Shown: in pieces, positions 17,552 to 61,337 of the stretch
Position numbering within the stretch: the first letter of the stretch is position 1
Layout: each line of letters starts with the position of its first letter
Source of the DNA: Amia ocellicauda
Lineage: Eukaryota > Chordata > Actinopteri > Amiiformes > Amiidae
DNA length: 64,000 bases
Direction of reading: 5' to 3'
Assembly (NCBI RefSeq): GCF_036373705.1
Contig: NC_089863.1
Span: 7,973,357-8,037,356 of the forward strand
Notes under the pieces: model-generated
What the model was told of the DNA's origin: nothing
Database searches by the model: none
The model's input: the letters and a program-made list of their open reading frames with translations, nothing else
Translations under genes and position numbers: made by a program

Positions 17552-18772
17552 CACTCACCTAAAGGATTATTAGGAACACCATACTAATACTGTGTTTGAC
17601 CCCCTTTCGCCTTCAGAACTGCCTTAATTCTACGTGGCATTGATTCAACAAGGTGCTGAAAGCATTCTTTAGAAATGTTGGCCCATATTGATAGGATAGC
17701 ATCTTGCAGTTGATGGAGATTTGTGGGATGCACATCCAGGGCACGAAGCTCCCGTTCCACCACATCCCAAAGATACTCTATTGGGTTGAGATCTGGTGAC
17801 TGTGGGGGCCAGTTTAGTACAGTGAACTCATTGTCATGTTCAAGAAACCAATTTGAAATGATTCGACCTTTGTGACATGGTGCATTATCCTGCTGGAAGT
17901 AGCCATCAGAGGACGGGTACATGGTGGTCATAAAGGGATGGACATGGTCAGAAACAATGCTCAGGTAGGCCGTGGCATTTAAACGATGCCCAATTGGCAC
18001 TAAGGGGGCTAAAGTGTGCCAAGAAAACATCCCCCACACCATTACACCACCACCACCAGCCTGCACAGTGGTAACAAGGCATGATGGATCCATGTTCTCA
18101 TTCTGTTTACGCCAAATTCTAACTCTACCATCTGAATGTCTCAACAGAAATCGAGACTCATCAGACCAGGCAACATTTTTCCAGTCTTCAACTGTCCAAT
18201 TTTGGTGAGCTTGTGCAAATTGTAGCCTCTTTTTCCTATTTGTAGTGGAGATGAGTGGTACCCGGTGGGGTCTTCTGCTGTTGTAGCCCATCCGCCTCAA
18301 GGTTGTACGTGTTGTGGCTTCACAAATGCTTTGCTGCATACCTCGGTTGTAACGAGTGCTTATTTCAGTCAAAGTTGCTCTTCTATCAGCTTGAATCAGT
18401 CGGCCCATTCTCCTCTGACCTCTAGCATCAACAAGGCATTTTCGCCCACAGGACTGCCGCATACTGGATGTTTTTCCCTTTTCACACCATTCTTTGTAAA
18501 CCCTAGAAATGGTTGTGCGTGAAAATCCCAGTAACTGAGCAGATTGTGAAATACTCAGACCGGCCCGTCTGGCACCAACAACCATGCCACGCTCAAAATT
18601 GCTTAAATCACCTTTCTTTCCCATTCAGACATTCAGTTTGGAGTTCAGGAGATTGTCTTGACCAGGACCACACCCCTAAATGCATTGAAGCAACTGCCAT
18701 GTGATTGGTTGGTTAGATAATTGCATTAATGAGAAATTGAACAGGTGTTCCTAATAATCCTTTAGGTGAGTG
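17552..18772 (-). mobile_element. Intact Tc1/mariner element (DD36E type), copy 1
   Basis: 1,221-bp element with near-perfect 28-29 bp inverted ends (CACTCACCTAAAGGATTATT and its complement), flanked by TA on both sides as expected for Tc1/mariner target duplication. It landed in an (AT)n tract 0.3 kb past the chrnb1 stop codon. It carries one full-length transposase frame on the minus strand. Another copy of identical length lies at 22631-23851 on the opposite strand. Confidence 0.95.
17584..18624 (-). CDS. Tc1/mariner transposase, full length (346 aa), copy 1
   Basis: Cut-and-paste transposase of the IS630/Tc1/mariner superfamily. The N-terminal paired-like helix-turn-helix includes SISQSAQLLGFSRTTISRVY at about residues 24-43; a second DNA-binding segment follows (GRLIQADRRATLTEI). 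The RNase-H-like core has the triad in AWSDESRF (first D), FQQDNAPCH (second D) and DLNPIEYLWD (E). I count 36 residues between the second D and E, a DD36E spacing rather than the DD34E of canonical Tc1. No stop or frameshift interrupts the frame, and it fills the element. It differs from copy 2 at seven residues, none of them a catalytic acid. Family name (Incomer-like) is from memory. Confidence 0.93.
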   Translation of the reverse strand: MGKKGDLSNFERGMVVGARRAGLSISQSAQLLGFSRTTISRVYKEWCEKGKTSSMRQSCGRKCLVDARGQRRMGRLIQADRRATLTEISTRYNRGMQQSICEATTRTTLRRMGYNSRRPHRVPLISTTNRKKRLQFAQAHQNWTVEDWKNVAWSDESRFLLRHSDGRVRIWRKQNENMDPSCLVTTVQAGGGGVMVWGMFSWHTLAPLVPIGHRLNATAYLSIVSDHVHPFMTTMYPSSDGYFQQDNAPCHKGRIISNWFLEHDNEFTVLNWPPQSPDLNPIEYLWDVVERELRALDVHPTNLHQLQDAILSIWANISKECFQHLVESMPRRIKAVLKAKGGQTQY

Positions 18773-22630: not shown

Positions 22631-23851
22631 CACTCACCTAAAGGATTATTAGGAACACCTGTTCAATTTTTCATTAATGCAATTATCTAACCAACCAATC
22701 ACATGGCAGTTGCTTCAATGCATTTAGGGGTGTGGTCCTGGTCAAGACAATCTCCTGAACTCCAAACTGAATGTCTGAATGGGAAAGAAAGGTGATTTAA
22801 GCAATTTTGAGCGTGGCATGGTTGTTGGTGCCAGACGGGCCGGTCTGAGTATTTCACAATCTGCTCAGTTACTGGGATTTTCACGCACAACCATTTCTAG
22901 GGTTTACAAAGAATGGTGTGAAAAGGGAAAAACATCCAGTATGCGGCAGTCCTGTGGGCGAAAATGCCTTGTTGATGCTAGAGGTCAGATGAGAATGGGC
23001 CGACTGATTCAAGCTGATAGAAGAGCAACTTTGACTGAAATAACCACTCGTTACAACCGAGGTATGCAGCAAAGCATTTGTGAAGCCACAACACGTACAA
23101 CCTTGAGGCGGATGGGCTACAACAGCAGAAGACCCCACCGGGTACCACTCATCTCCACTACAAATAGGAAAAAGAGGCTACAATTTGCACAAGCTCACCA
23201 AAATTGGACAGTTGAAGACTGGAAAAATGTTGCCTGGTCTGATGAGTCTCGATTTCTGTTGAGACATTCAGATGGTAGAGTCAGAGTTTGGCGTAAACAG
23301 AATGAGAACATGGATCCATCATGCCTTGTTACCACTGTGCAGGCTGGTGGTGGTGGTGTAATGGTGTGGGGGATGTTTTCTTGGCACACTTTAGGCCCCT
23401 TAGTGCCAATTGGGCATCGTTTAAATGCCACGGCCTACCTGAGCATTGTTTCTGACCATGTCCATCCCTTTATGACCACCATGTACCCATCCTCTGATGG
23501 CTACTTCCAGAAGGATAATGCACCATGTCACAAAGGTCAAATCATTTCAAATTGGTTTCTTGAACATGACAATGAGTTCACTGTACTAAACTGGCCCCCA
23601 CAGTCACCAGATCTCAACCCAATAGAGCATCTTTGGGATGTGGTGGAACGGGAGCTTCGTGCCCTGGATGTGCATCCCACAAATCTCCATCAACTGCAAG
23701 ATGCTATCCTATCAATATGGGCCAACATTTCTAAAGAATGCTTTCAGCACCTTGTTGAATCAATGCCACGTAGAATTAAGGCAGTTCTGAAGGCGAAAGG
23801 GGGTCAAACACAGTATTAGTATGGTGTTCCTAATAATCCTTTAGGTGAGTG
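22631..23851 (+). mobile_element. Intact Tc1/mariner element (DD36E type), copy 2
   Basis: Same 1,221-bp structure as copy 1 but in the opposite orientation: CACTCACCTAAAGGATTATT at the left, its complement at the right, TA on both flanks. Length and almost all positions match copy 1, which indicates recent transposition of the family. Confidence 0.95.
22779..23819 (+). CDS. Tc1/mariner transposase, full length (346 aa), copy 2
   Basis: Uninterrupted 346-aa transposase, starting at the same MGKKGDLSNFERG and ending at the same GGQTQY as copy 1. The helix-turn-helix and the DDE acids (WSDESRF, FQKDNAPCH, NPIEHLWD) are all present with 36 residues between the last two. Differences from copy 1 are R70M, S88T, I169V, A206G, Q243K, R253Q and Y284H (copy 1 to copy 2). 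Q243 of the QQDN motif is K here; glutamine is usual in Tc1 enzymes, so copy 1 looks closer to the ancestral form at this site. Activity of either copy is not known from sequence. Confidence 0.93.
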   Translation: MGKKGDLSNFERGMVVGARRAGLSISQSAQLLGFSRTTISRVYKEWCEKGKTSSMRQSCGRKCLVDARGQMRMGRLIQADRRATLTEITTRYNRGMQQSICEATTRTTLRRMGYNSRRPHRVPLISTTNRKKRLQFAQAHQNWTVEDWKNVAWSDESRFLLRHSDGRVRVWRKQNENMDPSCLVTTVQAGGGGVMVWGMFSWHTLGPLVPIGHRLNATAYLSIVSDHVHPFMTTMYPSSDGYFQKDNAPCHKGQIISNWFLEHDNEFTVLNWPPQSPDLNPIEHLWDVVERELRALDVHPTNLHQLQDAILSIWANISKECFQHLVESMPRRIKAVLKAKGGQTQY

Positions 23852-32460: not shown

Positions 32461-32917
32461 TCATGAAACCCGGCGCACTGAAACTCCCGTGCCCGCGCCC
32501 GCACGCCCCCCCCCGCGGCTTAAAAGCGCGTCCCCGGCGCCTCATTAAAAGCTCAAGGTGCGGCAGACAGGTGTAAGAGACGGACCTGCGCAGGACGGCA
32601 CGGTGCAGCACGGGTTGCCTGGATAAAATCACCCAGAGACGTCGTTACCTTGCTTTTACTGTAACCTTACACCTCAGGAGGGGAAGCATTGACTGGATTT
32701 GACCAAGTGCGCAAAAAAAGTAGTTTGATTCCCAAATTGTAGCAGGTGCACCGGAGTTGGAAGACAAAGGCGGTGTGAACACGCGTTGAAGGACATCTTC
32801 TTCCCTGGATACAGACCTCAGACACATCCGTCTCATTTTTCCAATCCATCCAGTCGTCTGGCAACTTGTTGGTGACGTTTCTTCTCTCCGGCCGGCGTTG
32901 GACGTGCGTTGATCCAG
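32461..32917 (+). promoter_or_regulatory. cldn7 core promoter and 5' UTR
   Basis: GC-rich segment with CCCGCGCCCGCACGCCCCC near 32490-32516 and TATA-like CTTAAAAG at 32519-32526; a second ATTAAAAG is near 32544. Transcription should begin around 32.55 kb, and an unspliced leader of about 360 bp would run to the ATG at 32918. The start site is inferred. Confidence 0.45.
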
Positions 32918-35900
32918 ATGGCTAACTCCGGGCTGCAGATGCTGGGCTTTGCGCTGGCGCTCATCGGCTTGATCGGGCTGATCATCGGGACCATCCTGCC
33001 CCAGTGGCAGATGTCGGCCTATGTGGGGGACAACATCATCACGGCGGTGGCCATGTACCAGGGGCTGTGGATGTCCTGCGCCTTCCAGAGTACCGGGCAG
33101 ATGCAGTGCAAGGTGTACGACTCCATCCTGCAGCTCAACTGTAAGTGTGACCCGTTTTCTCTTGCCTGCTGTGCTTATAGTCGACCACCTACAGCCCGAG
33201 CCCATCATGCGAGAGCAGTGTGGGACAGGTGTGCTCGGACCCAGAACTTGGTTAGGAGCACCTTCTTTAGGTGGGAGTGATGTTTTGGAAGTTCGCACTT
33301 GGGCGTGTTCACATAAGACCGAGTATCTGCTGCAACTGGGGGCTTCTTTAGTTTAATTACAGCGCACATTGACCTGGTTAAATCTAAACCGCACATCCCC
33401 TGTTCCATAACCGTGCATGCCAACGCAAATTCGTGAACTTTCCCACATTTGAAACGGTTTCATTGAGGGATAATAAAACCTGGGGGGTGAATCGTGTGTC
33501 GCTACACTGTTGCAAACTGTTGAATGGGTAACAATCGGCGGAAAGGGGCGAGTTGAACGGGCTACAGCGGGGGGTACCTGGATGGTATTTTGTGTGGGTT
33601 GTCCCTAAACCTGTTGCTTCTCAAATTACGTTCTCGGAAGCCTGTGTGAGTTTCTGTAGAGGGAGGGGGTGAGGGGGGGCTCATAGCCTTTAGTCCTGGA
33701 GATGACGTTACAATATCACTGTAGTAACCTGTGCGGGAGGAAGGAGGATCCGGGTGATTTCGTTCTTCCATTTTGAAAGGACGACACCGTTAATGGCTTT
33801 AGTGTTTGAAAAGGTCACCCTGGAGCTGCTAACCTAGGCTTGCAAGGGTTTGTTACCTGTGTGGGTGTACTGGGGGGGGGGTTGGGGAGCCATTATGCAA
33901 CCCACACTGATCGACTAGGCTGTTTTTGGAAGATTTGGTTGCCCGACAGTTTGCATGTCGCCAATGCTTTGTACGACTTCAGGAACCTCGCCCAACAAAA
34001 CCGACCCATTGCTTTTCACATGAAAGCAAATGCCACCGCGTTAGACTTGCTAATTAACGCCTGCTTCCATTGTCGACGTGTTTACTCTGAGTGTAACGCA
34101 TAATTAGTGACTGTCTTCTCTAGAAGAGCCTTTTTGTCTCTATAAAAGGTTGTAACATTGTCCATTGTTTCAAGGTTTACACGACCTCCGTTTGTGCCGC
34201 ATCCTAGGCGCACTTAAGATAACAGGTTTTCCCCCCAGAAACTGATTTTAAACAATTCATATATATATATAAAAAAAATATGCTTTTTATTTTAAGCAAA
34301 TGAGTTCACAATTTATTTTTACACCCTTTTGTTGCTTGCAATTATATGAAATGTGATCTGGAAGTGGTTGATCACAGTGGACTGAAGTGTTTTACCAAAA
34401 GACACTCATTTGGTGCAGCATTATTTTCACACAGATTCCCTAGTCCCCATGTCTCCAAGACTTCCTACATCTAGATGTTGTAGTAATTGGTGAGGAGTCT
34501 TTCGATTCCAATGCTATACTGCACACAGTTTATACAATAACTCTTCAGTGTGCACATTTAAATGTCTTATTTAAAGGATGGATTCGATGATTTGCCCCAA
34601 GGGGCAATTCGGTTTGCAAACTGGGGTTAAACCTTCAGCAATCTTAATAACAAAAACTAACTCAACGGCACTGATCCACGGGTGGAGGGGGGGATTCAGA
34701 TAGCAGTAGTAAGGATGCTCTTGTCTTTCTAATTCCTTTTTAAGGTGGACTACAATATAGTTTTGAAAAGTTTTTGGTTTCTATGTAGTTTCTCAGAAGT
34801 GGTCTAATATTTAGAGTAATGTTATTCCATGCATACTCAATACCTCTTGTATATCACTTTGTTAGATCTGAAATCTAAATGGTTCACATTTTGCTTGATG
34901 CATGTTTTAAGATGACATGTATCAGTAAAAACAACAAAGAAACTTTGAGAGCAAGTTAAGAGATCGCACAACATTTAATCTTCTCAGTCGTCCCAATTGG
35001 ATACTTTCACTAGACAGGTGTTCACATTACCAGATTATGACTTGTTTCTAACTCTCCTGGGTACACATTGTGCAGCAGTATTTCGTGTGGAGGTTTGGGA
35101 TGGTGTATTTTTTGTCACTGTCAATGCTTTTTTGTAATGCAGAAATGTATTGGTCATCTGAAATGTTGTACATTTTTGGGGGAATGTGGCCATTTCTCCT
35201 TTGCAACTCACTCCTGTTATCTCCGATCAGCAATGCATTCTGGGCTTATCCACAGTGAGGCTGGAGAAGACGACTAGTGCATTCCAGACATGCCTGACCT
35301 GAAACCCACAGACTTGAGTGTAGAAAATGTTCCTCGCACTGGCACCCAAACTGATTTTTAGTTTCTTATTCTGCTGTTCATCCCATTTCTGACAATAAGG
35401 CCTTAAACTCCTTCACCACGATCTTCTAGGGAGTGGCAGATGAAGAGAACAGATCATGGGGAAATGGATGCATCCAAACAAACGATAGCAGAATGATACA
35501 TTTTATAGTGAATTATGTTTTGGGCCAGTCCTTGCTATTTTCCGAACTACTTTCAGTACGACCGCTTAAGTGTAGCTCCATGTAATGACTCCGGACCTCT
35601 TGTAATGAGAAATGGGTTATTGGGTATATAATATCAGAAACTAGAACCCAGCTAAATCATTTTACTTATCTTCTGCTTTTCAGGCCTTTGTGTAATCGTG
35701 AAAGTGCAATGGAACAATAAAATCACACTCCGGGCGTGTGACACACTGTACGCGGAACTACAATACTAAAATGCACCACTATTCACAAACCATAAAACAA
35801 TATGGTGTTTGAACTGATTATCAAAATTGTGGTGATTAAGGAGCTTTTATAGGGTGTTATCTCAATGTAAATATGTTTTATAGAATCTTGAACAAATCGA

Positions 35901-37863
35901 CTGATAAAAATGAATAAACCATAGTTACGTGGAAGGAATACTGGAGTACACTTAATCCAGAGGAGTCTGAATTCTCTGCTCGCTGTGGAATGTTGTGCAG
36001 TAGTTACAGTAATATTTAAACTTTATAAGAAGGGTTAACAAAACTCAGTTGACTGTAAATGGCTGGAAATTCCCCAAGTTAACCATGGACACGTTAACAA
36101 TGTTATAACACTCGATACCTTCTTTCTCTGTTGGAGTTGCTAGAGAACACCCAACCATGTTTCTCAACTATGAGAATTTAGTTTTAGTTGTGCAGAAGAT
36201 TTACCTGTGTGGCACTAGTGATATTTAGCCTTCAAAAAGACCTGAGAATGAATCCTTTTGCTTTGTAGGAGGGAAGTAAACTCAGATTTTCAGTTGTTTC
36301 TCATGTATTCACTCTGGCACACCTTGCACTGAAACCTGATCCCTTTGACCTGATGATAACTGGCTCAACCTGTACCGTGTGTGTCCGCCTCTGAAAGGCG
36401 GAAGGTGGGGGAGGATCAACGTCGCGGTTTCCCCCAAAGGAATTCTCTTGGTAGAACCGGTTTTGGCCGCACCTTATGCACCTGATACTCCAGAGCTGTT
36501 GCCAGGCTTGATGTGGCCTCATTTACATCTGTGTCAAGAGATTTGTAAACTGGGGACAGCCGAGTCTTGATTAAATCGAGCGCGTCCCAGTTCAAAATGC
36601 CCAAATGCATCTTATTCTTTAAATAGAGTATTATGTTTAATAAAGTTAAATAATGTGTAGGTCATATGAAACCCTATTTAACTTCCCTGCCCCCCGAGCC
36701 CTGGCTGGACAACTAACCCAAGCTTATTCAGGAACCTATTGTAGTCTCAAAGTAGGCCATTACAAATACATCAGGATGCACAAGCTGGCGTTAATCACAT
36801 GGGGCCTGTTATTGTGATGAAGGTCTTGGGTGGAATGAGAGCCGGAAGACCTCCTATCCTAGGGAATTGAGCCCCTGCTTATTAGATGTTGATTGGTACA
36901 CTTCAGTTTTTTTTTTTGTTTTTTTTTTTACGTTTTGAAAATCTTAAGCTTTCTGCACTAATCGAGCCAAAATCTCTTCTCTCCAGCTTCCCTGCAGGCG
37001 ACACGTGCCCTCATGGTTGTCAGCATCGTGGTGTCCGTGGTCGGTCTGGGGGTCTCGTGCATGGGCATGAAGTGCACAAACTGCGGAGGCGACGACAAGG
37101 TTCGGAAATCGAGGATCGCCATGGTGGGCGGCATCATTATTCTCATCGGAGGTGAGGACAGCGGTTTTGGGTTCTTGTCTAAATATCTGATCCTTTTCCT
37201 CTTGTGCAGAATACTGGAAAACCACTTCTACCGTAGACCCCGACTCAATTCTTTACTTGTATAGCACCCTTCACAGGGTAGCCACAGAGTGCTTTACAGA
37301 CTGGTAAAGGTACAACAAATGTACAGCAAAATAAAATGCAGACCTTTAAACAGTTTACATGATCTAATGTAAATCATTTTCCAGCCACTGGCCTGACGAA
37401 TACACAAGGGGTTATCTTGCCACACCCGTAATTTCTTCTGAAGATCATGAAGATCTTGGTCTGCATTCTCTAATCTGTTTTCCTCTCCATTTCCTGCAGG
37501 TTTGGCTGCTATCGTGGCTTGCTCATGGTTTGCAAATAACATCATCAAGGCCTTTTATGACCCCTTCACTCCTGTCAACACCAAGTGAGTACCACTCCTA
37601 TCTGATGCTCATTTACTTCCGATCTAGTGTATACTGTCGGCATATTGTGTCGCTAATTGTTATATTGCTTTAATTTTGACTGTTTGTTTTTCTTCAGGTA
37701 TGAGTTTGGTGCAGCCATCTTCATTGCCTGGGCTGGGTCTTTTTTGGTGCTTTTGGGTGGTGGCATGCTTGCCGCTTCCTGTCCTGGTACAAAACAGGGA
37801 AAAACCTCCAAATATCCAATGCCAAGCAACCGACCTCCCAGCAGCACCAAGGAGTACGTCTGA
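32918..37863 (+). CDS. cldn7: Claudin-7 (4 coding exons, 212 aa)
   Basis: Four-pass tight-junction protein that seals the paracellular space and sets its ion selectivity. Exons: 32918-33140, 36987-37151, 37500-37584, 37698-37863; GT-AG introns with matching phases. The start [11 protein letters not shown] matches claudin-7. TM1 is about residues 8-28. Extracellular loop 1 carries the claudin signature W30, G49-L50-W51, C54 and C64, with R81 following. TM2 starts at about 82; [16 protein letters not shown] is the intracellular turn; TM3 is in exons 2-3. Loop 2 contains [15 protein letters not shown], then TM4. The tail ends KEYV, a PDZ-binding motif for ZO proteins. Length is close to the 211 aa of human CLDN7. 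Whether it is a or b of a duplicated fish pair cannot be told. Confidence 0.95.
33141..36986. other. cldn7 intron 1
   Basis: 3.8-kb intron without another exon that I can support. It contains one perfect AACCGGTT at 36455-36462, the Grainyhead-type palindrome. Confidence 0.6.
36455..36462. promoter_or_regulatory. Grainyhead-like consensus AACCGGTT in cldn7 intron 1
   Basis: Exact AACCGGTT, the GRHL consensus; GRHL factors activate epithelial junction genes including claudins. A single 8-mer is expected about once per 65 kb by chance, so this is only a candidate. Confidence 0.25.
37240..37310 (+). mobile_element. LINE (L2/CR1-like) 3' tail in cldn7 intron 3
   Basis: CAATTCTTTACTTGTATAGC followed by ACCCTTCACAGGG and AGAGTGCTTTACAGACTGG is the common 3' end of vertebrate L2/CR1-related retroelements. 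Only about 70 bp remains. Confidence 0.5.
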
Positions 37864-39925
37864 ACGTCCCCTATTCGACCTCTGCAAGCCAAACTGCACA
37901 AGGAAGGAACCAACGCCTCCTTGCAGGCTGTCGTTACAGCAGTGATTTTTTTTTTTAATTGCATTTTAACTCTTTTTTTTTTTTTTTTTTTTTAAGCAAA
38001 GTAAACGTTTATCACCTCAGTTGACTTCAAGTTGAATTCACACCCCAATGCATAGCAGTTCTGAATATGTAAGACTTTGATTTTTGGTGCATGTCCGAGA
38101 ATGTTGGCGAATCGGATTTTGTAATCCTCCAGGTTCTTTAGGGTGTTTTTTCTCGCTTCCCATAAGGAGACAACGATTAATCGGTTTAATATAAAGTACA
38201 TTTTGAGTGGGACCAGAACCAGACGAAACTGTGGCTCTTTAGTGCCAAGGTTGCTGACCACCAGTACCTCGTGATGAGGACCTCACAGCAGGGATAGATA
38301 ACTCTAGGCCTTTACGGCTGAACTTTTTTCTGGTTTAATTCCACCTCAAGACTTAATTCTCTAGTTTTTATCAGTGGTTTCAGCCCTTTAATCTGTTGTC
38401 AATGGAAAGACCCCTATAAAACCTACAGGAACTAGACCCTCCAGGGGTTAAGGCATTCCAGTCCTGGCTTACGGCATGATGTATTAATTTTAAAATCATC
38501 CACGGAACCGAACTCCTTCTGAAGTATGCATGTACACACCGATTTCACTGCTAGAATCCGTATTGGTTCAGGTATTTTCACTCCTCAGTTGTTCAGGTAT
38601 TTCCCCATTAGAGGTTTGTTTATACTTTGACATCAAAATAGTAATCGATCTCAATTTTAGTTTTTAGTTGTTTTTTTATATATATATGGATGCATGTTTG
38701 AAATTTGAGTAGCTGAGTAACCTAATGTTTTTTACAATAAAAGTTCAAAGTTCACTTGTTTTAATGCCCTCAAACATGACCAGAGCAGGGTGATTTTTTT
38801 TTTTTCCTCCCTTCTAGTAATGTGAAGGCTAATACTTTCTCTTTACTGTAAAATTAGTGCTAGAGATCTGGAAGTGAGTTTTAGGAAGGAAATTGTTAAT
38901 GCCACACTTACTTAATGCTAGCATGTCTATATTATAAGCTGTCCACTTGTTGCTGCAAACTTATGTTCAAAGACTTTAAAAATGTGAAACCTGCATTAAA
39001 ATGTATATAGGAGGAACCTTTTAAATTATGAATGTGCAAATTGTATGGGGTGACTGATCAAAATTGGTCAACAAAAACGTGTTCATCAGTGCCACCAACG
39101 TACTATTTCTAACTTCACGTATGCTAGAAGCCAGGGCTGTATCGGTTTCCTTATTAATTCACATAGATAATTTGTATAAAATTAATTGTTGTCAAAGTCC
39201 AGATTGTTTTGATGGTTTGGGGGTCCTTTTGCTCAATTTTTAAAAGGTCTGAAGTCTTTACATTTGATTCTGGAAGAGAATGAACACCAAAATTATATCC
39301 TATTCTGTAAAGATGATTTAGACTGTGCATACTTTGAGGACAAACCTTTTGTATCAAGTAAGCCTTTTCATTGCCTTTTAAATTGTACTTACTAGAATAT
39401 TTGACTGTAAAAAGCAGCTTATACCAGGAATATTTTGTTTTTCATGCATTCAACCCTGGTTATTTCCCCTTGTGAATCTAAAATGGCATGGATAAATGAA
39501 ATGTAGACTCTCTCGGCAGCAGCCAAAAAGTTTTTGCATATTCACTTTGAATATGCAGATTCCTCTGCCCAACTGTGTGGGTCCAAATCCCTTGCAGGTT
39601 GTCTTATGCTGTGTCCTTTTGTACAAGATCTATATTAAGAAATAAAAGCTGCCCCATTAAGAGCTGGATAGATATAATGCATTTTTACACTGCTTTAGGA
39701 TCTGTGATCTGTGTTTTGAAGTAGTGTGGCAAATTTTGTACATGGCAAATTCTGCTTGGTTTCTTGCATGTTGTACAAATGGGTCTGGCTTCTTTATATA
39801 TTTTTTTTCCTTCAGACTATGGTTGGCTAACTTGCCGTCTATCAATGCCTAACTTTAAGTTTGTATTTTGTAGTTTTGTTTTGAGAAGATTCTTGTGTAA
39901 ATAAATATTTCAACCTTTTTTGGTG
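37864..39925 (+). other. cldn7 3' UTR (predicted)
   Basis: No gene or inserted repeat seen. Long T-rich tracts near 37.95 kb. Possible poly(A) signals AATAAA occur near 38.74, 39.64 and 39.90 kb. The last is followed by a strong T/GT-rich stretch, so the full 3' UTR is about 2 kb. Extent is inferred. Confidence 0.5.
39900..39905 (+). terminator. Distal poly(A) signal of cldn7 (AATAAA)
   Basis: AATAAA followed within 15-50 bp by TTTTTTGGTGGCTTTTG and further GT-rich sequence, a good downstream element. Confidence 0.5.
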
Positions 39926-41468: not shown

Positions 41469-42361
41469 CACCGATCAGTCATAACATTATAACCACTGAC
41501 AGGTGAAGTGAATAACACTGATAATCTTGTTATCATGGCACCTGTCAGTGGGTGGGAAATATTAAGCAGCAAGTGAACATTTTATCCTCAAAAGTTGATG
41601 TGTTAGAAGCAGGAAAATGGGCAAGCGTAAGGATCTGAGTGACTTTGACAAGAGCCACATTGTGATGCTAGACGACTGGGTCAGAGCATCTCCAAAACTG
41701 CAGCTCTTGTGGGGTGTTCCCGGTCTGCAGTGGTCAGTACCTATCAAAAGTGGTCCAAGGAAGGAAAATAAACTGTTCTTGGATGCAGTCAGATGAACCG
41801 GCAACTGGGTCATGGGCGGCCATGGCTCACTGATGCACGTGGGGAGCAAAGGCTGGCCTGTGTGGTCCAATCCAACAGACGAGCTACTGACGAGGTTCTG
41901 ATAGAAAGGTGTCAGAACACACAGTGCATCGCAGTTTGTTGCGTATGGGACTGCGTAGCCGCAGACCAGTCAGGGTGCCCATGCTGACCCCTGTCCACTG
42001 CCGAAAGCGCCTACAATGGGCACATGAACATCAGAACTGGACCACGGAGCAATGGAGGAAGGTGGCCTGGTCTGATGAATCACGAGTTCAAGGTGTTGAC
42101 TTGGCCTCCAAATTCCCCAGATCTCAATCCAATCGAGCATCTGTGGGATGTGCTTGACAAACAAGTCCGATCCATGGAGGCCCCACCTGGCAACTTACAA
42201 GACTTAAAGGATCTGCTGCTAACGTCTTGGTGCCAGATACCACAGCACAGCTTCAGAGGTCTATTAGAGTCCATGCCTCGACGGGTCAGGGCTGTTCTGG
42301 TGACAAAAGGGGGACCTACACAATATTAGGCAGGTGGTCATAATGTTATGGCTGATCGGTG
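41469..42361 (+). mobile_element. Internally deleted Tc1-like transposon, copy 1
   Basis: About 0.9 kb. Ends are CACCGATCAGTCATAACATT and, at the right, AATGTTATGGCTGATCGGTG. The interior encodes Tc1 transposase pieces on the plus strand (start MGKRKDLSDFDKS, later RKRLQWAHEHQNWTTEQW and SPDLNPIEHLWDVLD). The frame jumps from WSDES straight to EFKVLTWPPNS, so the part with the second catalytic D is missing. The copy at 51147-52043 has the same junction. A foreign insert at about 41764-41789 brings an in-frame stop. Confidence 0.85.
41764..41789 (+). repeat. 26-nt insert matching 39960-39985
   Basis: Inside the Tc1 copy, right after the codons for SKEGK, a string starting GAAAATAAACTG and ending TTGGATGCAGT matches plus-strand positions 39960-39985 exactly. 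The sister Tc1 copy lacks it. Confidence 0.85.
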
Positions 42362-45300: not shown

Positions 45301-45581
45301 AATCGAAGAGAAAATTAGAACACCTTTTTAAGTTTTTTTTTTATTATTATTATTTTTTAAAACACTTTAAGAAACCGAAATGAAAGAGAAACCACAGAAA
45401 AGCACACCAATTGTATCAGTGTTCCATAAATAAGCTTAAAGTGCTTGAAGTTAAACAATAAATAAAGTCCCCATGAAGATTTTGACGTCTCCAATTCATT
45501 TCCCCGGTAAAAAGGCATTTCGACCCACGGTTTTGCGGTTTGGCTTCGTGTAGGCATGGCACAGTCGGTATCGCAGGGTAT
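42362..45581. other. Intergenic DNA and 3' UTR of the CaMKIIN-like gene
   Basis: No coding exon seen. A diverged repeat tail (AGCAGACACCCTTATCC) is near 43.04 kb. The AT-rich stretch of about 43.9-45.6 kb probably includes the minus-strand 3' UTR of the neighbouring gene; candidate minus-strand AATAAA signals are near 43.87 kb. Its end cannot be placed. Confidence 0.4.
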
Positions 45582-48254
45582 CTAGGCCACAGGCGTCAGG
45601 TTAAGGGATATGGGGAAAAGGCCATTATTGTTCATCATGTCATCAAAATCTTCATCCTCGATCACAACTAAAAGAAGAGGGAGAAAAATTATTCAGAGTC
45701 AGTATAAAATCATATATATTAATTAAGCTCCCATTAACAGCTTATTCCTTACAATTACTATGTACAATGTACCTGAAGGGGAGGAGGCTGTATTTTCTTT
45801 TGCTTGGTAATACAGTTCAAATCATAGCCACAATAGCAGTGCAGCATTTCAGATGTGGGTTCTGCTCACCCCCCCATTTAATGGTACATTACCCTATTCA
45901 AAACACAGCAAGTACTTTACACAAATAGTAATGTAAATGGGAGATTAATAACATTGGACAGGGGAGTAAAGCAGCTCTTACAAAGAACATCTCAAGCATA
46001 AGACACAGGGGCTGCTGTTGTTGGGCAGGCCAAAGATGACCTGGCTGCATTTGACCAACCCAAAGCCAGACGTATTTAGTTTATTGCACGCTGCCCCCTG
46101 TTGTTTCAATCTGCAATGACGGCACAAAATGTAAACAGCCTGGACTCTTTAGGGCTCAACCTAGAGTCTTTTCAGTTACTTAATTGAACCTTAATTGAAG
46201 TAACAATCTACTTACATTTGACTTTTTAAATTGTGTAATAAAACAGTTGGTTCTTTAATAAATTCTTTATACAATTCTATACTTAACCTAAAACCCCTGC
46301 TGTTTAAAATGATTAAAAGGCTCAGATTCTGGAAATTAGTTCAGTTAAGGCTTCAATTAAGTAATTGAGAGCTCAGTTGCAACAAAAACCAAAAAACAGT
46401 CCCCCAAGACTAGGATTGGGAGCACTGTGTTTGGGTGGATTACTGATTTGAAACTCCATGTAACCTGACATTGACAATGACTGCATTCGTATAGCAAAGA
46501 AAAACCCTGTGTTCACAATTGCCAAGAACAATAATAATCTCAGAGAGTTACTTAAAAAGGTAAAGCAACCGAGTACTGATTAAAAGAGCATTTATTTTGT
46601 ATACCACTTCACATAAAAGCTGTACACTGAGAACTTGTACATTATGACAGCGCTTATAAGTCTAAATCGAGGGTGCCCTCTTCAGGACCAGGAGGGTTAG
46701 AGTGCATCAGGGTGTTTTGCTGTGTTGACATCGCCAAGACACCAACAACGCCAGACTTAATAAACTGGCTACACTGCCTAAGTGAATCAAATTATTAGAT
46801 CATTAAAAGGTTATTAAAAGCATGGGCGGAAGGAACACAATGTCAGATGTCAAGACAAGGAGACACCACAGCCCTGGAGGACATGAGGCTGGGCATCCCC
46901 TATTCTAATTATGGTCATGTCATCCAGCTAGTGCATTCCAGCTTTAAACTAGGGTTGGGCAATACATCGGCAGCATAGTTTCATAAATTGATCTTGGGGA
47001 AAACACTGTAGCAGGTTTTTTTTTTTTTTTAATGAGTCATTTCCAGTTGCACACAGATCACAAATGAATACGTGTCAAAAAAAAAAGAGAAACGTGTGTC
47101 TTAGAATGAAATCTACTGTATCAAATGTGTCATATATATACTATAATACCATTACACTATATTATATGTCTACAATACTAATATAGGAATGTGTATATGA
47201 GCTAAAGGGGTCAAACTGCATCTCAATCTAATAGGTATTGATCATCAGAAAGCAGCATCGTCAGTGGTGTTCTGGTTTTCGATTCAAAACAGATCTGGAT
47301 CCCAGCACCATCATTTATGTTGGAAAGCTGGGGCAGGAAAAAAAAAAAAAATACCGCAATGTCAAATGTCAATGAATCGTGATCTATAGCCGGCTGTGTT
47401 AACCCCTGTGAAAAGTCATCTAGATCTTAAAAAGATAAAATCGCAGACCTGTACACACACAGCCTCCTACATGTTCATAAGCATGTCAGCGCTGTGACAC
47501 ATACAGTCCCCACAATGACAGCTGTGGAGAATGGACTACGACATCAGTAATAATGAGCACTACACACAATCACAACGTTTACTCCGACACGGGGATAAAC
47601 CCAAGCTTTGCAGCAATACAAGCATGTATTCAATAGTAATACACGGATTGCACATAAACCATACGCACTTTTATAGCTTGCAGAGGTGGGGGACTGCAGT
47701 GCATTCAGTCACAAGCCCCAAACTCTCAGCTAAACTATTTTAAAAGCAGATATCAATAACACAGGAGGACATTCAAGCGGCCTCGGTGTTTTTGTTCAAA
47801 TGCGCAATGACTGATATCAATGCGTCCCGAGTGAAGTAGAAACATCACTGTTTTGCTGTAGTTGAATAGTTTACATTAAACGTCACAATGTTACCGAGAC
47901 AGCGTCTGTGCGTCCCCCGCCAGCCCCGCTCCAGCCCCCGGCTCTCTCACCTCTCCGGGACCGGCCGATCTCGCCCAGCTTGGGGGCCCGCCTGCCCAGC
48001 CGGCGCTGCGGGGAGTCGAGGCTCAGCCGGCCGGGGTTGAACTCCGCCGCCTGCCCCGGGTTATAGCGGCCCTCCTCCGGCGGAAAGCGGCCGGCTTGGG
48101 GCTGCTCCGGGACCGCCGCTAGGTCGTACATCTCCCGCGTCGCTGGCGCAGTGGGGGCCTGTCGTTTGTCCCGTCCTGCCCCGGCCTCTCTCTTCATCCA
48201 AAGGCGCGGCTCGCCGGGCTGCTCCTGCTCTTCCTTCCCGCAGCAGTAGATCAT
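45582..48254 (-). CDS. CaMKII inhibitor (CaMKIIN)-like protein, 2 coding exons, 88 or 129 aa
   Basis: Predicted inhibitor of Ca2+/calmodulin-dependent kinase II. Coding exons on the minus strand are 48254-47951 and 45667-45582, with a GT-AG intron in phase 1. The splice joins RRAPKLGEIGRSRR (residues 88-101) to VVIEDEDFDD (102-111). This rebuilds the inhibitory core of CAMK2N1/2 (RPPKLGQIGRSKR then VVIEDDR); about 15 of 21 aligned residues match. The rest is not CAMK2N1/2-like: a Cys-containing start (MIYCCGKEEQEQ), a Pro/Arg-rich middle, and a tail rich in Asn/Asp (MMNNNGLFPISLNLTPVA). Start is uncertain. The ATG at 48254 gives 129 aa but has weak context; the ATG at 48131 (MYDLAAVPEQ) gives 88 aa, nearer the 78-79 aa of known CaMKIINs. 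The assignment rests on the motif alone, and inhibition is inferred. Confidence 0.75.
45668..47950. other. Intron of the CaMKIIN-like gene
   Basis: 2.3-kb intron. It contains a diverged member of the palindromic repeat family near 46.14-46.44 kb and no further coding exon that I can support. Confidence 0.6.
46140..46440. repeat. Relative of the palindromic hAT MITE
   Basis: Contains CTTAATTGAACCTTAATTG, TTGACTTTTTAAATTGTG, AAGTAATTGAGAGCTCAGTT and CCAAGACTAGGATTGGG, shared in the same order with 55.13-55.43 kb. It lies in the intron of the CaMKIIN-like gene. Confidence 0.5.
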
Positions 48255-48960
48255 ACAGATGGTTACAACCGGGCCGCGGACTGTAGCCCTGCCGTCGCAA
48301 ACACACACATGCACAAGAGCGCGTTAAAATGGTGGCTCTGGAGTATCAATATTGAATATTTAACAACACAGTGCTACGACACCCTACACGGTGGCGTGAC
48401 AGCCCAGCCGGACTGAAAACACGCCTTTGACACACTTCTCAGCAAATGCACGGGCCACCTAGTCGCCCGCTCGCTTAGTATCCATAATAACGCACTGCAA
48501 TAGTTTAAAATGAAAAGTTGCACCGCGAAATCCCGATCACGCCTATGCAAGAACCCGACATCCCCAATCCCAATCCCGATCCCAATCCCAATCCCCGGCA
48601 CGCCGCGCACTTATCAACGGGCAAGTGCAACAGGATGATGTAGAGGTGTGCTGCAGTGCTGACCTGTGTGCGCTGCTCTCTGTTGAACGCAGTGCAATGT
48701 GTCTACAATGTTTCCAGCACCCGTCTGTTTTAACGACACCCCCGCGTCCCCCCCGGCCTGGGCTCTTCTCATAGGCGCGCGCAGGACGGGGATTCCCCCG
48801 CCGCTGTTTTTCTGCTGACGTCACAGTCCGCGCTGCCAGGAAAGCCCGCGCGCCCACACCGCCGCTGACGTGGGCGTGTGACCTTCAGTTGCTGCTGCTC
48901 GCCCAGCTCTGATTTGCGACTGCGCGTAGCGACACGCGTGCCAGGTTTAGCAGTGCTGAG
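47900..48960 (-). promoter_or_regulatory. CpG-rich promoter and first exon of the CaMKIIN-like gene
   Basis: Roughly 1 kb of GC-rich, CpG-dense sequence in otherwise AT-rich DNA. It includes a perfect CRE (TGACGTCA, 48816-48823), a second half-consensus GCTGACGTGG near 48865, and a C-rich hexamer repeat at 48562-48597. No TATA box is evident, as is usual for CpG-island promoters. Confidence 0.6.
48562..48597 (-). repeat. GGGATT hexamer array, possible G-quadruplex
   Basis: On the minus strand there are six runs of three or four G, each separated by three bases (ATT or ATC). This fits the usual G-quadruplex pattern and lies on the non-template strand of the adjacent gene. Confidence 0.7.
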
Positions 48961-49964
48961 ATGCGCTCCATCTTTGCTGATCTCCCCCTGAAAGGGTGAT
49001 TTATAACCACAGTGGGGATTGTAAATGATGGCTTGTTGCAATAAGTTTATGTACGAGGCTGAAGTTGGCTTTGCAGCTTCTTATTCGGGCAACTTTACCT
49101 CCATACCTCTCTATATAAGGTCTTCTCCAACTTTTAATGGTTTTAAATCTCTTAAAACTGTTTTGTTTTCTCTAGGTATACTCTTATTGTCTTTGTGTCT
49201 TTCATGTTGTCCTTGTGTTTTTGTTATGAATTTTGGAATTTGCACTTTTTTTGACCAACCCAAAGCGAGATGTAATTTTGGCACTTTGGCCAACTGTCGT
49301 TGTTTTTATATGTGCTATATAATAAAAGTGACTGACTGACTGACTGACTGACTGACAACTTACTATTCAAGTGCACACATTAATTTATACAAGTTGAATA
49401 TTTAGCAATGGCATTAACTGTGGGCCATGGATTTCTCTGCAGATTCTTAAGGAGGGGTATTTATCTACCAGGTTCAAGTGTATTTCAATGTGTTCAGTGG
49501 CACAATAGTGGGTATGCATGACACATATGCCCGCCAACAAAGGACTGATTAGCCCTGAAGTTAAGACAAAATACCTTGATTGACTTATTTGTCTTATTGT
49601 TCTATATAAAATGAGACAGTACATACATAAGACAAGACATAAATGTACTGCAGGATACATGTAATGGTGTTGTAAATAAATAAATACATATAACAACATT
49701 AATAAATACAAATACATAAAGTTAGCCAATGCACAGCACAATAATGTGTCTTTTTAACACAAGTCTATGTGGCAATAACATTGGTTTTTTTTTGTGACAC
49801 TAAATTATGAAGTCCTTAAACAATCATAATGTTTTAATTTTAACTTTAGTTCAAAGTAGTCCTTACACTTTCACAGTCAGACTACAAAATCAATTTTATA
49901 GGGCATGTTCCCTGAGATCAATTTTATATTTACATAAAATTCAACATAAGACACAAAACATACA
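48961..49964. other. Intergenic DNA with a (TGAC)n-tailed repeat end
   Basis: TGTGCTATATAATAAAAG followed by seven GACT units (about 49329-49356) looks like the 3' tail of a retroelement, but its body is not recognised. The rest is AT-rich and empty. Confidence 0.35.
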
Positions 49965-51120
49965 GCAAATGCCAGAACACCTTCAATGCTCTTGGCACAG
50001 ATTCGATGAGTCTCTGGACTCTACTGGAGGGATGGACACCATTCTTCCAAAAGATATTCCCTCATTTGGTGTTTTGATGATGGTGGTGGATAGCGCTGTC
50101 TAACACGTCTGTCCAAAATCTCCCATAGGTGTTCAATTAGGTTAAGATCTGGTGACTGCGAAGGCCATAGCATATGATTCACATCATTTTCATACTCATC
50201 AAACCATTCAGTGACCCTCGTGTCCTGTGGATGGGGGCATTGTCATCCTGGAAGAGACCACTCCCATCAGGATAGAAATGTGTCACCATAGGATAAAGGT
50301 GATCACTCTTGTAATAACTTTGTAATGATTTGCAGTGACCCTTCCCTCTAAAGGGACAAGTGGACCCAAACCATGCCAGGAAAATGCCCCCCACAGCATA
50401 ACAGAGCCTCCGGACCCCCTCACTGTAGGGGTCAAGCAGTCAGGCCTGTCCCGTTCTCTTGGTGTCCCACACATGCACTCGCCCACTTGTCAAGAATATG
50501 GTGAAGGATGACTCATTTGACCAGATCACTTTTTCCCACATCTCTGTAGACCAGTGCCTATGGTTTTTGCACCACTGAACTCCCAAATGTGCATTTGTCT
50601 TTGTAATGAGGGGTTTATGTACTGCAGCCATACTATAATATCCTCTATGTGCAGTTCTGGATGGACTGTTCTTGCTGACACAGACTGATCACGTCCTGCA
50701 TTGACATTCTCAGTCACCTGGGAAAGAATTGCACTTCGGTTGTTCCTTACATATCGCAGCAATGCACGAGCATCACAGTCATCAAATGTGCGCTTTCCAC
50801 TCCAATTTCCAAACCCAATTTACTGAGGTATTTTACATATATCTAAATGCTGATGTAACTTTAGTCACTGAGCAGTCTTTGTGACTGAAGCTCCTGCCAT
50901 TCATGCCCCAATAATGACCCCTCTTTCAAAGTCACTTCCTCTTGCCATCTTGATCCAAAAGTGAGGTCAACTGGACCTGCTCAGGATTGTTATACATGCC
51001 ACAGAACATGATAGGATGTTAATTGCTTAAAGTATCATGCAGTACACCTGTTTGGAGGCATCTGCATTCATTATGTTCGTCCACTCATTTATTCAGGTAT
51101 TTCCTTTAATTTGTCACCCA
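49965..51120 (-). mobile_element. Degenerate full-length Tc1-like transposon, second family
   Basis: Transposase pieces on the minus strand are spread over several frames: MARGSDFERGVIIGA followed by a TGA, then NNRSAILSQVTENVNAGRD, SVMLWGAFSWHGLGPLVPL and FQDDNAPIHR. Right-end sequence near 51080-51118 (CATTTATTCAGGTATTTCC) looks terminal. Multiple frameshifts and stops make it dead. Confidence 0.75.
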
Positions 51121-51146: not shown

Positions 51147-52043
51147 CACCGATCAGCCATAACATTATGACCACTTGCCTAATATTGTGTAGGTCCCCCT
51201 TTTGCCGCCAAAACAGCCCTGACCCGTCGAGGCATGGACTCCACTAGACCTCTGAAGGTGTGCTGTGGTATCTGGCACCAAGACGTTAGCAGCAGATCCT
51301 TTAAGTCCTGTAAGTTGCGAGGTGGGGCCTCCATGGATCGGTCTTGTTTGTCAAGCACATCCCACAGATGCTCGATTGGATTGAGATCTGGGGAATTTGG
51401 AGGCCAAGTCAACACCTTGAACTCGTGATTCATCAGACCAGGCCACCTTCCTCCATTGCTCCGTGGTCCAGTTCTGATGCTCACGTGCCCATTGTAGGTG
51501 CTTTCGGCAGTGGACAGGGGTCAGCATGGGCACCCTGACTGGTCTGTGGCTACGCAGCCCCATATGCAACAAACTGCGATGCACTGTGTGTTCTGACACC
51601 TTTCTATCAGAACCAGCATTCACTTTTTCAGCAATTTGAGCTACAGTAGCTCGTCTGTTGGATCGGACCACATGGGCCAGCCTTCGCTCCCCACGTGCAT
51701 GAATGAGCCTTGGCCGCCTATGACCCTGTTGCCGGTTCACCGCTTTTCCTTCCTTGGACCACTTTTGATAGGTACTGACCACTGCAGACCAGGAACACCC
51801 CACAAGAGCTGCAGTTTTGGAGATGCTCTGACCCAGTCGTCTAGCATCACAATTTGGCCCTTGTCAAAGTCGCTCAGATCCTTACGTTTGCCCATTTTTC
51901 CTGCTTCTATCACATCAACTTTGAGGACAAAATGTTCACTTGCTGCCTAATATATCCCACCCACTGGCAGGTGCCATGATAACGAGATTATCAGTGTTAT
52001 TAATTTCACCAGTCAGTGGTCATAATGTTATGGCTGATCTGTG
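51147..52043 (-). mobile_element. Internally deleted Tc1-like transposon, copy 2
   Basis: 897 bp between inverted ends CACCGATCAGCCATAACATT and AATGTTATGGCTGATC(T)GTG, with TA on both flanks. Minus-strand frames 51351-51803 and 51179-51484 carry the N-terminal half and the NPIEHLWD end. The WSDES to EFKVLTW deletion is identical to the copy at 41.5 kb, so the second catalytic D is absent. It lacks the 26-nt insert of copy 1. Confidence 0.88.
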
Positions 52044-58537: not shown

Positions 58538-60195
58538 TCAGCTTTGCAAATGTTGCAGCAAACGGACACCTGTGTGAGTGCGCTGATGTTTTTTTAAGTT
58601 TCCTGGATGAGAGAAATTCTTCCCACATTGGGAGCAGCAGTACGGTTTCTCTCCTGTGTGAATGCGCTGGTGACATTTAAGGCCTCCTAAATCATTGAAG
58701 CTCTTCCCACATTTAGAGCAGTAGTATGGTTTCTCTCCTGTGTGAATGCGCAAGTGAGATTTAAGTTTCATTAACTCACGGAAGCGCTTGCCACACTGGG
58801 AGCAGCAGTATGGTTTCTCTCCTGTGTGAATGCGCTGGTGAATTTTAAGTTTACTTAAGTCATAGAAACTCCTCTCACACTGGGTACAGCAGTATGGTTT
58901 CTCTCCTGTGTGAATGCGCTGGTGAGATTTAAGATTTGCTATCTCAGTAAAGTTCTTCCCACACTGAGAGCAGCAGAATGGTTTCTTTCCAGTGTGAGTG
59001 CGCTGGTGAATTCTAAGGCCCCCTAAATCACGGAAGCTCCTCCCACACTGGGTACAGCTGTATGGTTTCTCTCCTGTGTGAATGCGCTCGTGAGATTTAA
59101 GGCTTCCTGACTCGGTAAAGCTCTTCCCACATTTGGAGCAGCAAAACGGCTTCTCTCCCGTGTGAATGCGCTGATGTTTTCTAAGGTTTCCTGACTGAGT
59201 AAAGCTTTTCCCACACTCGGAGCAACAGTATGGTTTCTCTCCTGTGTGAATGCGCTCATGAGTTTTGAGGTTTTCTGACTGACTAAAGCTCCTCCCACAC
59301 TGGAAGCAGCAGTATGGTTTCTCTCCTGTGTGAATGCGCTGATGAGTTTTAAGGTATTCTTGCTGAATAAAACTCTTCCCACACTGGGAACAGCTGTATG
59401 GCTTCTCTCCTGTGTGAATACGCTGATGTTTTCTAAGGCTTGATAACTCACTGAAGCTCTTCCCACATTGGGAGCACCTATATGGATCCTCTCCTGTGTG
59501 AATGCGCTGGTGAGTTTTAAGGCTTTTTAGCTCACGGAAACTCATCCCACACTGGGTACAGCTGTATGGTTTCTCTCCCGTGTGAATGCGCTGATGAGAT
59601 TTAAGATTTCCTAACTCATTGAAGCACTTCCCACACTGAGTACAGCAGTATGGTTTCTCTCCTGTGTGAATGCGCTGATGAGTTTTAAGGTGTCCCAACT
59701 GAATGAAGCTCTTCCCACACTGGGAGCAGCAATGGCAGCCCTTACGTTTCCGAGTTTCCCTTGAGGGGGGAGTGTGGGAGCTGGAGGGAGTGTGGGTGCT
59801 GGAGGGTCTGGGACGCAGCTGTCTACACTGTGTCGATTGGTCCCTCCCTACACTGAGCTCTGTTTCCAGATCACTGAGGCCTCCTTTAATACTCTCCAGC
59901 CTAAGATTACAGAGTCCATCTTTCAGAAGAGTGCGAGTGTCTACCTCTGATTCATTGGACTCTGTTTTAATGTGATCAGACAACACACTGGGTTCAGGCT
60001 GTGTTCCAGACTCCAGGCCACTGAGCTCCGCTTCAGTGTCTCTGCTCCTGGGCTGCTCAGTTAGCCCCTCTTTATCTTCAGTAGCTGTGGGCTCCGTGTC
60101 CTGCCCCAGACTGGAGCCCCACTGCTGCTCACAGCGCTGCTGCTCAGTGGGAGCCCTTTCCCGAGAGTCAGGGAGAGCGCTGGCCTGTACAGCTC
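58538..60195 (-). CDS. C2H2 zinc-finger protein, 14 fingers (last exon only)
   Basis: Predicted nuclear DNA-binding regulator. The exon starts after the acceptor CTCTCCCCCAG at 60196, in phase 1; upstream exons are not found, so the N-terminus is missing. About 150 acidic, Ser/Thr/Glu-rich residues come first and include HIKTESNES, a SUMO-type IKTE motif. KKRKG-like basic residues (RETRKRKG) precede 14 tandem fingers (about 59740-58560) with mostly TGEKPY linkers; two are altered (TGEDPY, TGKKPF). Nine fingers have an extra Cys just before the first zinc ligand (YCC or FCC). The first two fingers carry contact residues Q-G-H-T and E-G-N-S. No KRAB, BTB or SCAN domain lies in this exon. Orthology of such clustered fish genes cannot be settled by eye. 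Confidence 0.88.
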
Positions 60196-61337
60196 CTGGG
60201 GGAGAGACAAGACATGAGAAGAGCACTGAGAACAGCAGATCTGAGGACAGGTTACTAGTACAGGTCATAAGAGTTACACTGGATACCGATTCTGTCGAAA
60301 ATGGATGGCTATATTTCAAATGTGTACTACTAGAGCAGTGGTGGGCAACCTAGAGTGGTCCACAAGTCCATTTGTCAAATGACCGCTTGTGCCGCATGTC
60401 TCCCTTTACCACAAGCCACAAATGTTACACTTGAATTACAAAATAGTAGGGTGAAGGTTCGTTCAGTCTCCAGACCTTCATAGATTTTTACAAACCTTCA
60501 AAGGTTCGTCACATTACAATCACATCCATTTTTGTTCTCTTGTTGATAAAAATTGACAGTGTTTGAATACTGCAGAGTGCCACCGCACCAGATAAAGGGT
60601 TAATGGGGTAAAGGTGATGGGGTGGGGAGGAGCGTAGGGAGAGGGGATAAAATCTTAAGTGAGGCGGAAGAACGAGTCAGTGTGTGAGTGTGTTCAGTGC
60701 TCTGCAGTAATAATTAATACAATGATTTGTTGTTGCACCCGCAATGATGATTTGGGTCTACTCCTTGCAAACCCCCGCAAGAGTTACAATACTAAACCAC
60801 ACATGTCCCACTATATAAATTAAGACATTTGATTTGTATACTACCCATTACATAAATAAACATTGCTGGATATAAAAAAATTGAAACTGTAATAAAAAGC
60901 ACCTTCATTGCCACTGTCGTGTCAGCAGGCATTGGACCAGATTCAATTTAAACAATGTATTTGAAAATATAAGATTATCACAAGATAATCTTCTGAAAGA
61001 GCACTATCCTGCCAGCATGCCTGTAGCACCACTGCATTATTCTGCTTTATTGTTTCATTTTCAACGATCTTTACAGCAAAGTGTTGTGCAATATAATGTA
61101 AATGTAAAACAAGAGCTTCAACAAAATGTTGCTGTTCAGAATGTTTTGTTTAATGCACAGAACCCAGCTGAAATTATCACGGAAGAAAAGGCATTTTCCG
61201 GGATCATTTAACCAATGCGAGTTTACATTATTATGTGTTATTTATTAGGTTTAATGGTCAATTGCATAGAACTGAAAGCAGCATACTGGAGATGATCCCA
61301 TATTTAGTTCGCAGCTCTACTAACTGCAAGTTTGTTG

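Follow-up and report, generated by a model that had tools for sequence, protein, structure and literature searches.

A candidate third CaM-KIIN-type gene next to a claudin in the bowfin genome

Introduction

The CaMKII inhibitor family, with two known members in mammals, has been described with the alpha and beta isoforms (PMC3184957), and CaMK2N1 and CaMK2N2 are the members named (PMC5481336). The question raised by the present locus is whether the genome of the bowfin Amia ocellicauda holds a third member and, if so, where it came from and what its protein would do. The locus lies in the window, i.e. the whole stretch of 64,000 nucleotides that was analysed (C20:7973357-8037356, in a genome of 988 Mb and 385 contigs), for which an earlier note, made from the sequence alone, had proposed a divergent third type of CaMKIIN-like gene beside cldn7. 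The gene is provisionally labelled camk2n3.

Results

Structure of the window gene

Judged on its sequence, the window gene is an intact-looking third member of the small CaMKII-inhibitor family. Its features, and those of two neighbouring genes, are collected in Table 1. Exon 1 and exon 2, joined in phase 1, give a spliced frame of 129 aa in which the V102 codon is split, its first base lying in exon 1 and the remainder in exon 2, and the splice product reads RRAPKLGEIGRSRR-VVIEDEDFDDMM. The donor, GTGAGA, follows directly after exon 1 and agrees with MAGGTRAGT at 7 of 9 positions; at the acceptor of exon 2, pyrimidines occupy 20 of the 25 positions before the AG, and a CTGAC branch-like site is present.

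Table 1. Position of the third CaM-KIIN gene, its parts and its neighbours (coordinates of the window)
Feature	Position	Strand
Exons of a muscle-type acetylcholine receptor beta subunit	10902-11941	+
Exons of a claudin	32876-37945	+
AATAAA within an A-rich stretch, 237 bases past the stop; a weak candidate poly(A) signal	45340..45345	-
Coding exon 2, 86 nt, with TAG stop	45582..45667	-
CN19-like core, exon-2 part: residues 102-106 (VVIED) and one base of the next codon	45653..45667	-
Intron, phase-1 GT-AG, 2283 bp	45668..47950	-
Coding exon 1, 304 nt if the first in-frame ATG is used	47951..48254	-
CN19-like core, exon-1 part: residues 88-101 (RRAPKLGEIGRSRR) and first base of the junction codon	47951..47993	-
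CpG-rich stretch across exon 1 and upstream; compatible with a promoter	47801..49000	none

The codon-position GC of exon 1 is coding-like (0.74/0.56/0.86, in a frame without stop), being strongest over codons 42-87 (0.80/0.52/0.91) and weaker over codons 1-41 (0.68/0.56/0.78). CpG observed/expected values were 0.94-1.05 across the six 400-base intervals tabulated from 47801 to 49200, except for 0.88 in the last. The gene is presumably transcribed. Scanning exon 1 for bacterial promoters gave no useful information. As for the start codon, its position is uncertain in view of the weaker codon-position GC of codons 1-41. The nearest upstream in-frame stop ends at 48324, the first ATG (48254) has a weak context with further ATGs upstream in the presumed leader, and alternative in-frame ATGs are found at 48197 and 48131, the last of which has a G at -3 and would give a protein of 88 aa, near CAMK2N1/2 in size.

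The earlier note had placed the junction so as to fuse RRAPKLGEIGRSRR to VVIEDED, read there as the CaMKIIN inhibitory core, and both a half-motif scan and a family match bear this out. All GT and AG sites of the window were scored on both strands for a phase-1 fit to the CAMK2N1 core, i.e. 3822 GT sites on the forward and 3721 on the reverse strand (including the donor of the window gene), together with 3746 and 3864 AG sites. Before its GT, RRAPKLGEIGRSRR scores 56, vs. at most 13 at any other GT in the window and at most 21 in 20 first-order Markov shuffles, while VIEDEDFDDMM after its AG scores 34, vs. at most 17 for all other AG sites and at most 27 in 20 such shuffles. When the GT requirement was dropped, the runner-up 14-mer across the six frames scored 27 and contained a stop.

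The spliced protein matches Pfam PF15170 (CaM-KIIN) with 31.5 bits (E = 2.1e-7; cut-off 27), the match being gap-free over profile positions 43-70 of 79 and modest vis-à-vis the 160.6 bits of human CAMK2N1. Neither exon 1 alone nor the exon-2 frame alone (typed with a few upstream intron codons) has a Pfam match, so that the CaM-KIIN match arises only once the two are joined. Among solved structures, neither the full-length protein nor the isolated core had a match, short peptides being poorly found by this method, and the viral_contigs scan, one of eight, returned 9 pattern matches, none of which was confirmed.

Canonical paralogues in the same genome

A PF15170 search of the genome gave six matches, four of them above cut-off, which account for both exons of two canonical genes: a camk2n1-like gene on C24 (27636053-27636948; 79 aa, MSEVLPY..., GRSKR) and a camk2n2-like gene on C7 (78 aa, MSEILPY..., GRAKR). 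Two weak matches below cut-off were located on C23 (19.8 bits, one stop) and C22 (17.9 bits, two stops). This search misses the window gene exon by exon, and copies equally diverged would escape it too. Since canonical camk2n1 and camk2n2 lie elsewhere in the same genome, the window gene is a separate third gene. The case that the earlier note had named as refuting, namely that the locus is simply camk2n1/2 with a wrong first exon, was checked and is ruled out by the genes on C24 and C7.

All three genes have two coding exons, and their introns interrupt the identical V codon after the basic stretch, in phase 1; their lengths differ (2283 bp in the window gene, 659 bp in camk2n1 and 725 bp in camk2n2). 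The shared codon and phase argue against a retrocopy and indicate that the window gene arose by DNA-level duplication. Together with the spliced Pfam match and the separate canonical genes, this shared intron upholds the proposal of a third CaM-KIIN-type gene.

Core, N-terminus and tail

In the 19-residue core, the window protein is identical to camk2n1 (CaM-KIIN alpha, the C24 gene) at 15 positions and to camk2n2 (CaM-KIIN beta, the C7 gene) at 14. The changes relative to camk2n1 are K1R, P3A, Q8E and K13R, the serine at position 12 being common to both; camk2n2 has alanine at position 12, and its other differences from the window protein are those of camk2n1. At the codon level, the comparison with camk2n1 gives 4 identical codons, 11 silent differences and 4 residue changes among the 19 (dN 0.17, dS not estimable), and that with camk2n2 gives 5, 9 and 5, respectively, whereas camk2n1 and camk2n2 differ from each other by 6 silent differences and 1 residue change, with 12 identical codons (dS 0.79). 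Silently changed codons at 11 of the 15 residues kept vs. camk2n1 suggest purifying selection on the core. As the GC-rich exon 1 raises the number of silent differences, the depth of this divergence is suggestive and not dated.

When the comparison is extended to 28 codons, including the start of the tail, residue changes number 10 vs. camk2n1 and 13 vs. camk2n2, and constraint drops outside the core. Concerning the N-terminus, no likeness to the paralogues above shuffles was found (500/500 and 412/500 shuffles reach the observed score), and the conserved N-terminal half of the CAMK2N family (MSE.LPY ... CRLQDTN) is not seen in the window protein, which would have 129 or 88 aa vs. 79 for CAMK2N1. 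As it is the core that inhibits, this half is regarded as a usual trait of both known members and not as a defining one. The start of the tail has a weak fixed-register likeness to DRIDDVLKNM, reached by 6 of 2000 shuffles for camk2n1 and by 28 of 2000 for camk2n2; when gaps were allowed in a local alignment, the tail did not reach significance (34/500 and 430/500 shuffles, respectively), and the PPGV end of the family is absent. The earlier statement that everything outside the core differs holds for the N-terminus and may hold less well for the tail start, and RIDDVL had been wrongly taken for the usual end of CAMK2N1/2, which continue to PPPGV or SSPGV. As a whole, little besides the kinase-blocking core would have been kept in the window gene.

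Comparison with engineered peptides

The CN19 peptide, reported as unordered, inhibits with an IC50 near 100 nM, and L6, I9, R11 and S12 are among its most sensitive positions, R11 being equivalent to the -3 arginine of the pseudo-substrate (PMC3184957). All four are kept in the window core, in which positions 1, 3, 6, 9, 11 and 12 correspond to R88, A90, L93, I96, R98 and S99, and R101 occupies the acceptor position. According to Table 1 of PMC3184957, alanine at position 3 raises potency and arginine at position 1 lowers it; Q8E and K13R do not occur in that table. The alanine at core position 3 had been named, correctly, as a change used in optimised inhibitor peptides (PMC3184957, abstract and Table 1), and the window core shares it with CN19o and related engineered peptides. 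In contrast to CN19o, the window core keeps Arg 14, Ser 12 and Val 16, so that the stronger engineered changes are absent from it, and it carries the potency-lowering arginine at position 1 (PMC3184957).

The window protein would thus be a CaMKII inhibitor in which K1R and P3A are expected to act in opposite directions on peptide potency. Its core would span both the T (docking) and the S (substrate) site of CaMKII in its activated state, with R98 (CN19 position 11) replacing the -3 arginine of a substrate and R101 standing where a substrate offers Ser/Thr, which would lead to block instead of phosphorylation. S99 could be a phospho-switch, as has been proposed for S12 (PMC3184957).

Chromosomal setting

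In human, the p53 family is located at 17p13.1 (p53), 3q27-29 (p63) and 1p36.2-3 (p73) (PMC3191818) and the Dishevelled genes at 1p36 (DVL1), 17p13.1 (DVL2) and 3q27 (DVL3) (PMC4228291), CAMK2N1 lying at 1p36.12 (PMC4846124) and CAMK2N2 within 3q27.1-q29 (PMC3905969). In the bowfin genome, nine p53-family exon matches were distributed evenly over C7, C20 and C24 (three each), and ten Dishevelled exon matches fell on the same contigs (4, 2 and 4, respectively); both searches score best candidates only, so that further copies are possible, and do not tell individual members apart. With camk2n2 on C7 and camk2n1 on C24, the window gene, on C20, is situated on the third copy of the Dishevelled/p53 paralogon, a position that would be reached by chance alone in about 1 in 27 cases (C20 represents 36.2 of 988 Mb). 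Intron and map position together suggest a survivor of the early vertebrate genome duplications.

As for the neighbours, the best 10 of 72 PDB matches of the acetylcholine receptor subunit are muscle-type beta subunits, and the best of 12 solved relatives of the claudin is claudin-19. We take the two to be chrnb1 and cldn7, whose human counterparts both lie at 17p13.1. The neighbour named in the earlier note is a claudin, and its probable identity as cldn7 draws on its closeness to claudin-19 among solved claudins. We know of no CAMK2N gene at human 17p13.1 or at the matching mammalian place.

Other features of the window

Two near-identical open frames of 346 aa, Tc1-like transposases on opposite strands with about 4 kb between them, were found at 17584-18624 (-) and 22779-23819 (+); the former matches Pfam Tc3_2 and DDE_3, the latter having been compared by eye only. 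Broken transposase pieces flank the camk2n gene at 41891-42329 (+), 50179-50819 (-) and 51351-51863 (-). The first and the last match Tc3_2 or DDE_3, and 50179-50436 has no Pfam match. Finally, a 603-aa open frame at 58538-60349 (-) contains 14 C2H2 zinc-finger stretches arranged in an array.

Discussion

The window gene is very probably a third CaM-KIIN gene derived from 2R and carried by the 17p13.1-type copy of the p53/Dishevelled paralogon, its protein most likely being a CaMKII inhibitor like CAMK2N1/2. In the simplest history, the 2R duplications would have left three CAMK2N genes, the third of which survives in the bowfin lineage.

A protein that binds CaMKII through its core might instead mainly place the kinase or compete with T-site partners, without lowering its activity. 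This is in line with the CN peptides, the core of which likewise takes up the T-site, in competition with GluN2B (PMC3184957), and with a knockout-rat study reporting that full CaMKII activity in kidney and left ventricle depends on Camk2n1 (PMC6686962), so that its loss did not simply raise activity and even CAMK2N1/2 may not be plain inhibitors in vivo. The N-terminus, wholly different from that of the paralogues, would also fit. The pseudo-substrate residues are kept nonetheless, including the arginine at the acceptor position, and we regard this role as quite improbable.

The origin of the gene could also be more recent, a canonical camk2n having been duplicated, intron included, onto C20 in the bowfin lineage and having diverged fast; such a copy might still inhibit the kinase and would not be a 2R ohnolog. 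An N-terminus and most of a tail without likeness are what a fast-evolving copy would display, and the evidence comes from a single genome. Nevertheless, a late copy would have had to land on the third contig of the paralogon, and the share of silently changed codons vs. camk2n1 (11 of 15) is above that between camk2n1 and camk2n2 (6 of 18), GC content contributing to this difference. Such a history appears very unlikely.

A silent or early-decaying gene, with a core kept because the loss is young, is a still fainter prospect. The weak context of the first ATG, the ATGs in the presumed leader and an AATAAA found only in an A-rich stretch would agree with decay, but the 129-codon open frame, the good splice signals, the CpG-rich 5' part, the coding-like codon-position GC and the scarcity of residue changes vs. 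silent ones in the core do not. As for a chance resemblance of two unrelated frames, to which a junction read from genomic DNA alone might be open, its probability is negligible in view of the junction scores vs. shuffles (56 and 34 vs. at most 21 and 27) and of the intron codon and phase common to both canonical genes.

The 2R-derived inhibitor gene can be given a bolder form, which we hold to be rather unlikely: an ancient third inhibitor, lost in mammals, with a core tuned by P3A and a palmitoylated MIYCC N-terminus that would direct it to a membrane-bound CaMKII pool. A membrane tether through MIYCC, comparable to that of GAP-43, would require the use of the first ATG (48254).

No third CaMKII inhibitor gene was found in the literature searched, which leaves most subscription journals outside; an automatic annotation may exist. 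Within the same scope, camk2n1a was the only lettered camk2n paralogue name found, and none of the matches listed combined the inhibitor name with ohnologs or genome duplication.

The beta core has been described by Coultrap and Bayer as identical from zebrafish to humans, from which it was argued that evolution opposed potency-raising changes, and the alpha core with S12 was suggested to have possibly arisen later (PMC3184957). The camk2n1 gene of the bowfin contains the complete CN19 sequence, including S12, and as two of the three paralogues have this serine, it is probably ancestral. Its occurrence in both bowfin camk2n1 and the third gene bears on the suggested late appearance (PMC3184957). 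The third gene, moreover, pairs a natural potency-raising change, P3A, with S12, while also carrying the potency-lowering K1R.
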